Below, in pieces: positions 57,560 through 59,335 of a stretch of 64,000 bases of DNA. The stretch comes from an uncultured Poribacteria bacterium. Lineage in GTDB: Bacteria; Poribacteria; WGA-4E; WGA-3G. The position numbers and the translations under genes are program-made. The notes under the pieces were generated by a model, which saw only the letters and a program-made list of their open reading frames with translations, did no database searches and was not told the DNA's origin. Position 1 is the stretch's first letter. The number at the start of each line of letters is the position of its first letter. The stretch lies in the NCBI GenBank assembly GCA_951828515.1, contig OX639992.1:5558217-5622216 (forward strand). The letters run 5' to 3'.

Positions 57560-59335
57560 TTATTCCTTGACGCCTCCTAAAGTAATACCCTGCACAAATT
57601 CACGTTGCATCGCTAAAAACAGAATAACGATCGGCATAAGCGATAGCAGTGTTCCTGCCATCAACATACCGTAATCTTGACGATAGGTCCCCACGAGATT
57701 CGCTAATCCGATCGGTAGCGTGTATTTCACCTCATCGCGTAAAATGATGAGGGGCCAGAGGTAACCGTTCCATGACCCTAAAAACGAATAGATCGTCAAC
57801 GCACCGAGAGCAGGCTTGATGATGGGTAGCACAACCCGGTAATAGATGCCGAACTCGGAACAGCCATCAATACGCGCAGCATCCAGCAGCTCAGACGGAA
57901 TCGTTACAATGAATTGACGCATCAGAAAGACGCCAAACGCACCGACCGAAAACGGGATAATAATCGCTTTGTAACTATTGAGCCAGCCAATATCGTACAT
58001 CAACCCAAACAACGGAACGAGCAGTACCTGAAAAGGCACCATCATGGAAGCGAGGAGGATACCGAACAGGATCTTCTGCCCGCGGAATTGATACTTGGCA
58101 AACGCATAGCCACCGAGTGAACAGAAAAACAGTGTGAGCAGCGTTGACGCGGTGGCAATGAAAATACTGTTGACAAAATACCGATTATAGGGCACCGTCT
58201 TCCACAGATTTCGATAGTTTGATGTGAATTTATCCCATACAATCGAGAGGTAAGCCGGTTGATGAATCGATAATTGTAGGAACAATTGACTTCCATTTCC
58301 TACGTCCATTGTTGATTGGGCAGGCACAAGACCTGTTGATTGGGCAGGCACAAGACCTGCTGATTGGGCAGGCACAAGACCTGCCCCTACTCTCTGCATC
58401 GTGATGTGTGACGATTCTAACTCACCGGGGATACCTTGCACTCGCCAGACCGAATCTGTCCACAACGCGCTTCCTAAAACGAAAGAACGTGTTGGTTGAT
58501 ATGTAACGCCATTGTTAGTGCTGCTGGCATTCATTCCAGACTGAGGGACAGACACAGTTAAAGAGAGACGGTGATACGAAGCATCTCCACGCACAGGCAG
58601 TGTAATACGCCGAATCCGCTCAATCGGAATAGGGGAGGAAATTGTAGCTGACAGACGAGCGGTGTCGCTGTCTTGGAAATTGTAGGATAGGCTGGCAGCC
58701 GTTTGGAGATCGTCTGACGTGCGTATACGCGTGCCTGCTTCTGCTTCCCAGTTCACAATTTCAATCGGTGTGCGATTGAAGTCAAGGTCTTCTACCTGAA
58801 GCGTCCCAACGGCAACTTCGCGATACACTGACCCCCAGATTGTATCAACAGCCTCAGGAATAATAGCGTCCCGTACCGCCGTAGTAACCGAACCTGTCGC
58901 TCCATTCCAGACCTCGTCTGGCAATCCTGCGACCAGTTGTTGCCATAACCCTTCCACTATTTCGGTTTGTAATTCTTTGGATGGGGCGTAATTGGAAAGT
59001 TTCCCATTTGCTGTGATGTGTGCCTGTGCTTCAGACCAAATTATCTGTGCGAGTTGGGGTTGCAGAGCTTGCCATCTCGCTTCATCCACTGCCGCCGGTT
59101 TTTCAATATTAGGATAGGCATCTTCGACAATATAAGGTGATGATGCGACGCGCGGCGGAAAACTCGGGAACCACTGAATAGGGACAGCGAAAATTTCGTT
59201 AGCGGTTTTAAAAGAGGAGGTCAATAGCCACAACATCGGTATCATCGTACAAAACGCTGCCCCTACTAAAAGGAGATAACCGACGCCTCTGAAAATCTTT
59301 ATTTTAACGTGTTGCGTTTTTTTACTTTGGTTCAT
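57560..59335 (-). CDS. Carbohydrate ABC transporter permease (MalG-like) with very large insertion
   Basis: 591 residues, about twice the usual 270-300. Membrane helix 1 (GVGYLLLVGAAFCTMIPMLWLL) and TSSFKTANEIFAVPIQWFPS match MalG-type permeases; the rest of the family fold resumes near residue 370 (NYRNLWKTVPYNRYFVNSIFIATASTLLTLFF) with the EAA-type loop ELLDAARIDGCSEFGIYYRVVLPIIKPALG and C-terminal GITLGGVKE. Between helix 1 and the core, about 310 residues form an extra extracytoplasmic domain; it includes three in-frame 24-base units coding GLVPAQST. No binding protein, second permease or ATPase is nearby. The insertion matters for length only; the core signature residues are intact. Confidence 0.88.
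   Translation of the reverse strand: MNQSKKTQHVKIKIFRGVGYLLLVGAAFCTMIPMLWLLTSSFKTANEIFAVPIQWFPSFPPRVASSPYIVEDAYPNIEKPAAVDEARWQALQPQLAQIIWSEAQAHITANGKLSNYAPSKELQTEIVEGLWQQLVAGLPDEVWNGATGSVTTAVRDAIIPEAVDTIWGSVYREVAVGTLQVEDLDFNRTPIEIVNWEAEAGTRIRTSDDLQTAASLSYNFQDSDTARLSATISSPIPIERIRRITLPVRGDASYHRLSLTVSVPQSGMNASSTNNGVTYQPTRSFVLGSALWTDSVWRVQGIPGELESSHITMQRVGAGLVPAQSAGLVPAQSTGLVPAQSTMDVGNGSQLFLQLSIHQPAYLSIVWDKFTSNYRNLWKTVPYNRYFVNSIFIATASTLLTLFFCSLGGYAFAKYQFRGQKILFGILLASMMVPFQVLLVPLFGLMYDIGWLNSYKAIIIPFSVGAFGVFLMRQFIVTIPSELLDAARIDGCSEFGIYYRVVLPIIKPALGALTIYSFLGSWNGYLWPLIILRDEVKYTLPIGLANLVGTYRQDYGMLMAGTLLSLMPIVILFLAMQREFVQGITLGGVKE
58312..58390. repeat. Three in-frame 24-base tandem units derived from a palindromic repeat
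   Basis: TTGATTGGGCAGGCACAAGA-CCTG repeated three times (58312-58383), last copy completing GGGCAGG / CCTGCCC plus CTAC. On the minus strand each unit codes GLVPAQS(T/A). The palindrome with CTAC tail is the intergenic family found elsewhere in the window. Confidence 0.8.

Follow-up and report, generated by a model that had tools for sequence, protein, structure and literature searches.

A 24-nt unit carrying part of a palindrome is repeated in tandem within the coding sequence of a Poribacteria ABC permease gene. The question raised by this locus is how a dispersed palindrome, mostly non-coding, came to be translated and expanded in frame, and what its arrival did to the gene that received it. 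The window analysed is a 64,000-nucleotide stretch of the genome G000, which is 5.85 Mb in one contig. The comparison genomes are species-level.

BPD_transp_1 is the sole match of the host protein in a Pfam search (E 1.7e-21). Between the hydrophobic segments at residues 14–41 and 386–409 there is a large extra region, described in the initial annotation as a 310-residue extracytoplasmic insertion. The region exists, but it is about 344 residues long, is common to the genus and is partly found in other families of the class; the repeat is therefore not its origin. None of the alignment columns between M313 and L351 is invariant among 26 aligned orthologues, and residues 318–347 are modelled as unstructured between two strands, at low confidence (mean pLDDT 44). 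In this alignment the loop that bears the repeat ranks among the least conserved parts of the permease. An unrelated insertion (NNNPQLSTEEPNNSKSSNLP...) is found at the same loop in two species (L046 and L049).

TRF places 3.1 copies of a 24-nt unit at 58310–58383 with 98% matches, and a repeat search of the window finds three copies at 24-nt spacing that are 100, 100 and 96% identical. Both agree with the three in-frame units of GLVPAQST reported initially, the translation being GLVPAQS(A/T). On the gene strand, the host codons ATG CAG AGA are followed by GTAGGGGCAGGTCTTGTGCCTGCCC, AATCAGC-AGG..., AATCAAC-AGG... and a final AATCAACAATGG. The copy with the GGGCAGG/CCTGCCC arms and the CTAC tail was correctly seen at the high-coordinate end, which comes first on the gene strand, where it is a complete GTAG-headed REP, GTAGGGGCAGG-TCTTGTG-CCTGCCC. 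The full 7-bp stem and GTAG head are confined to this copy, and the other two lack the GTAGGG arm. As single-stranded DNA the complete REP folds at -8.6 kcal/mol (z -3.55), with the head unpaired in the 4 nt outside the stem. Its stem of 7 bp and loop of 7 nt fall within the 5–13 bp and 2–20 nt given for GTAG-tagged REPs in the text of Di Nocera et al. 2013 (PMC3733652). The element belongs to the GTAG-headed REPs, a class associated with RAYT (Y1) transposases. What had been left as an unnamed intergenic palindrome is thus an element of a known type, for which that text describes in-gene cases.

Table 1. Positions in the window of the host gene, its variable loop and the parts of the repeat array
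Feature	Position	Strand	Basis
Host gene, 591-aa ABC permease (MalG-like)	57560..59335	-	BPD_transp_1 at residues 409-581
Variable loop, residues 314-350	58286..58396	-	Orthologue alignment
Complete REP, GTAGGGGCAGGTCTTGTGCCTGCCC, first gene-strand copy	58366..58390	-	Sequence, genomic matches, fold
GTAG head of complete REP (CTAC on forward strand)	58387-58390	-	Sequence
REP stem arm CCTGCCC (forward-strand letters)	58380-58386		Sequence
REP stem arm GGGCAGG (forward-strand letters)	58366-58372		Sequence
REP loop, 7 nt	58373-58379	-	Sequence
Tandem unit 1 (gene order), 24 nt	58358..58381	-	TRF register, repeat search
Tandem unit 2, 24 nt, without GTAGGG arm	58334..58357	-	TRF, repeat search
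Tandem unit 3, without GTAGGG arm, terminal AATCAAC matching host	58310..58333	-	TRF, repeat search

A 21-mer of the palindrome has three matches in the window at up to 3 mismatches and none in 100 shuffles. At this threshold the 64-kb window holds no other copy of the subfamily; membership of an intergenic palindrome family is therefore a property of the genome and not of the immediate neighbourhood. Dyad searches with GGGCAGGNNNNCCTGCCC and with GTAGGGGCN{8,30}GCCCCTAC gave 0 matches each, because the REP has a loop of 7 nt and no CTAC end on its far arm. Across G000, 34 sites match the 19-nt core at up to 1 mismatch, three of them the permease units, while the reversed control has 0. The 25-mer REP occurs 31 times at up to 1 mismatch, in every case with a GTAG head, mainly as single copies or direct arrays. 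At most of the 30 REP loci tested, no long ORF runs across the element. The REP lies clearly within a gene at the permease, L012, L013, L029 and L309. L021 and L362 were dropped, since the REP precedes the likely start as judged from translations; three ORFs of 236–243 aa and the L101 ORF were also dropped as candidates.

The 25-mer at up to 1 mismatch is present in 20 of 37 genus genomes and absent from 17, with 27 copies in G026, 20 in G030, 14 in G034, 9 in G001, 8 in G009, 6 in G012 and fewer in the others. A scan of genome contigs finds it exactly in at least 109 contig stretches, the 80 matches listed including Nitrospirota, Acidobacteria, Cyanobacteria, Chloroflexi, Proteobacteria, Clostridia, Bacteroidales and Poribacteria. 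Among the matches listed there are at least 9 inverted pairs less than 200 nt apart, at 8 or more loci, and at least 4 loci of other genomes where the 25-mer lies 54–216 nt from RAYT-like matches; these have 22–53% identity and two span just 30–32 residues. In Pyrinomonadaceae/Acidobacteria (L091, L102, L124, L133, L154 and L155) the 25-mer forms REPIN-like inverted pairs about 75–180 nt apart. Five over-cut-off matches to PF01797 are found in G000. One RAYT match (L200, G000:C1:2484804-2485103) is surrounded by six copies of GTAGGTGCGGTTTGCAACCGCACC in inverted orientations, a REPtron, but this is a different GTAG REP from that of the permease, and no cognate RAYT of the permease subfamily was identified in G000.

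REP orientation is segregated along the chromosome: 25 of 28 clusters fit a division into two arcs, in which '+' occupies 2.56–4.55 Mb of G000 C1 and '-' the remainder (P 0.0024 by permutation). Thirteen 20-kb samples of G000 show no clear replichores by GC skew, and so give no ground for attributing the arcs to replication. At ten loci (L006, L010, L018, L020, L022, L282, L287, L291, L352 and L360) the REPs lie within a longer element of about 70–130 nt. Its left part is conserved at non-orthologous sites and it has GGTAAT/ATTACC ends, giving it a MITE-like appearance.

A permease orthologue with 77–92% identity is present in each of 35 other same-genus genomes. Inspection of all 36 loops finds the array in only two, with three units in G000 and four in G030, so that copy number does differ between related genomes. 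Being absent from 34 of the 36 same-genus orthologues, the repeat is not a conserved ancestral feature of the permease. Likewise, two REP right halves 3–20 nt apart are found in only 2 of 38 genus genomes, again G000 and G030, and G030 has two further places with such paired halves beyond the permease array. Between these two genomes the array has 2 differences in 81 aligned nt, compared to 11.2% of 1647 in the gene flanks (P 0.004, which presupposes independent sites). The array was therefore homogenised or expanded recently, and its presence in just 2 of the 36 same-genus orthologues marks it as young.

Contrary to the initial view, what is repeated in tandem is more than the palindrome and does not coincide with it. 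At the place where the close relative without the repeat (L036) has ...AAAGTCGATACACACATCCCTGGACAATCTACAGTGGACGTAGG, the window genome has ...AGAGTAGGGGCAGGTCTTGTGCCTGCCC...CAATCAACAATGGACGTAGG, and AATCAAC is therefore the counterpart of resident codons. The amplified unit is AGGTCTTGTGCCTGCCC followed by AATCARC, a chimera in which 17 nt come from the REP and 7 nt match the host. Since the unit includes the host-matching 7 nt, expansion of the array postdates the arrival of the REP. A CA is present at either end of the first unit, which would permit slippage. Other REPs of G000 have been amplified with flanking DNA: the arrays at 161 kb and 310 kb each have three copies, and the one at 310 kb is a single copy in G033.

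The effect of REP arrival on the target can be seen at four in-gene sites of G000, each compared with about 30 relatives and three of them in variable loops. At the permease (site 1), L036 has VDTHIPG-QST where G000 has, per single copy, VGAGLVPA-QST, a net gain of 3 nt. At site 2 (L012, whose product has haem-binding-like Pfam matches), LSKEDTE or LSKEEAE in L207/L208 corresponds to EVGAGLVPA in G000 (net +6 nt). At site 3 (L013, with Ig-like repeats), all 29 relatives inspected have SGGLVPAQLTND or similar and G000 and G030 have VGAGLVPAQLTND (net +3 nt); the displaced codons there already read LVPA, in the same frame as the REP. At site 4 (L029), LGKET in L319 is replaced by VAAGLLPA (net +9 nt), and the REP copy of G033 at this site is decayed. 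Pure insertion of a 25-nt REP would yield +25, with the flanks kept and the gene longer by about one REP, and this is seen at none of the four. Counting 24 nt of REP, the small net gains correspond to losses of 21, 21, 21 and 15 nt of resident DNA at sites 1 to 4. The arrival in the permease, initially taken to be an insertion, was therefore the replacement of about seven codons.

In four species, the site 4 orthologues (L327, L332, L335 and L343) have a different palindrome-like repeat, CCCCCTGATAAGGGGGGATAAAGGGGG, translated in frame as PLIRGDKGGL in the same loop. Near orthologous intergenic spots (L295/L298, L306/L307 and L302/L303), relatives have a different REP subfamily or palindrome, in spacers whose poor alignment leaves no clear sign of replacement. 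In G030 (L357, C14 near 24944), a fifth in-gene copy of the REP, translated as VGAGLVPV, lies between the two halves of GcvP, the glycine cleavage P-protein. This GcvP is 2 residues shorter there than 4lgl, a cyanobacterial GcvP of the Synechocystis type.

Taken together, it is probable that a GTAG REP replaced about seven codons of the permease loop in the common ancestor of G000 and G030 and was then amplified in tandem as part of a chimeric unit. The frame would have been preserved on arrival, with a net gain of 3 nt for one copy. The REP sequence may have been copied over the resident DNA, whether by a template switch, by conversion or by the pairing-in of single-stranded REP DNA. The 24-nt unit of REP and host-matching sequence would then have been amplified, probably through slippage at the CA/CA microhomology and aided by the hairpin, to three units in G000 and four in G030. 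The added peptide is likely to be tolerated rather than needed.

The alternative that survives best, although we consider it unlikely, is that a whole REP was inserted in the ordinary way and that resident DNA was then deleted, with only those alleles that restore the frame and loop length surviving selection. Every net change is a multiple of three and, although the genome is gene-dense, few of the REPs lie inside genes; selection on frame therefore does act, and the text of PMC3733652 describes in-gene REPs as insertions. The permease loop, however, accommodates +48 and +72 nt from the array in G000 and G030, so that a limit on length hardly explains why 21 nt disappeared. To restore the frame of a 25-nt element, the loss of 1 nt would suffice, yet 15–21 nt were lost at all four sites. 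Insertion followed by deletion also has to account for site 3, where the REP coincides exactly, and in phase, with a resident LVPA. LVPA is rare, at 1 in 102,561 residues (ORFs of at least 200 aa in 17 samples of 20 kb), and the site 3 residents align to the REP better than all of 2000 random draws from the same genes, with P 0.0007 for the first relative. By the same comparison similarity between resident and REP is weak at site 1 (P 0.155) and absent at site 2 (P 0.95); site 4 is uncertain, with P 0.018 when 5 of 7 relatives are averaged and 0.31 for the first relative. From these alignments, resemblance to the resident DNA may assist replacement but is not required.

The uniformity of the translated peptide suggests another possibility, that GLVPAQS units, and VGAGLVPA elsewhere, were selected as a useful spacer or binding segment. 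The REP is open in five of its six frames, and VGAGLVPA or a near form is nonetheless encoded by five of the six clear in-gene copies in the genus (P 0.0016 for at least 5 of 6 at 1/5); unit number also varies between species. If the orientation of REPs relative to genes is biased, however, the five forward copies all being in one of two open frames has a P of just 0.03. The sixth copy runs in the opposite orientation within an O-antigen-ligase-like gene (L309), where it is translated as AGTRPAPT. In the multi-phylum set, the frames among the matches listed are mixed, 11 of 121 copies being in ORFs of at least 250 aa, some of them likely spurious. Selection for the peptide is made very improbable by the poor conservation of the loop, the 34 of 36 orthologues that do without the repeat and the decay of the site 4 copy in G033. 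That the array arose by chance or in assembly, with no relation to the dispersed palindrome, is virtually discounted by the 34 core matches against 0 in the reversed control, the 0 matches in 100 shuffles and the same array, at four units, in the separate genome G030.

Beyond the replacement at this locus, a general and more doubtful proposal is that REPs enter genes by overwriting, with single-stranded REP released by RAYT, or a template switch, filling a replication-fork gap. The resident DNA replaced would be of about equal length, and few matching bases would be needed at the ends. Overwriting would explain the near length-neutral events at four of four testable sites and the landing on a resident LVPA. 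It would also explain why GcvP has a REP without a gain in length and why REP orientation is segregated along the chromosome.

GTAG-headed palindromes are also a feature of the REPIN/RAYT systems as described in Bertels and Rainey 2011 (PMC3116915), Nunvar et al. 2010 (PMC2817692) and Corneloup et al. 2021 (PMC8266576), which resemble the present case in the Y1 transposase flanked by inverted REPs at L200 and, in other genomes, in the inverted pairs of the 25-mer. The G000 subfamily differs from them in being mostly single or in direct arrays, with no cognate RAYT identified there. The REPs in the text of PMC3733652 are alike in the GTAG head, in stem and loop ranges that take in the 7 bp and 7 nt found here, and in dispersal, RAYT genes and in-gene copies. 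Some are translated inside genes, singly or in groups, with placement in loops or linkers proposed, and are treated as insertions, whereas in the present case the gene loses resident codons of near-equal length, and host-matching codons form part of the tandem unit. That text does not name Poribacteria. It names RPE-4 and RPE-6 among intragenic repeats of R. conorii, and a CGTC class for these. Rickettsia palindromic elements are similarly dispersed palindromes translated in frame in unrelated genes; compared by description, they are about 150 bp (PMC10969869), while the REP here alters length by 1–3 residues.

Intragenic palindromes and REPs are therefore already known, but near like-for-like overwriting is not their usual description. 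Neither length-matched loss of resident codons nor a tandem unit containing host codons was found in the main texts of the REP literature examined. The 25-mer core, on either strand, was not found in the literature searched, nor was a REP paper on Poribacteria in the parts covered, and PMC3909097 has no occurrence of palindrom, repetitive or intergenic. The title of Higgins 1988 gives gene conversion as a mode of REP evolution, and the abstract of PMC8266576 describes the mechanisms of REP dissemination as poorly understood.

In-gene arrivals bear on how REPs spread, since in-gene REPs together with REP-free orthologues in about 30 sister species record the effect of arrival on the target. Here that arrival resembles the substitution of DNA of similar length. 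If this held in a larger set, it would favour the copying of REP sequence over resident DNA and speak against transposition of the simple kind. The initial view that a non-coding repeat has here become protein sequence is borne out, in that a mostly non-coding dispersed palindrome is now coding and has been expanded in frame. The route from non-coding repeat to protein would be one in which the gene is barely lengthened at first, and in which host codons are then carried along as the array expands.
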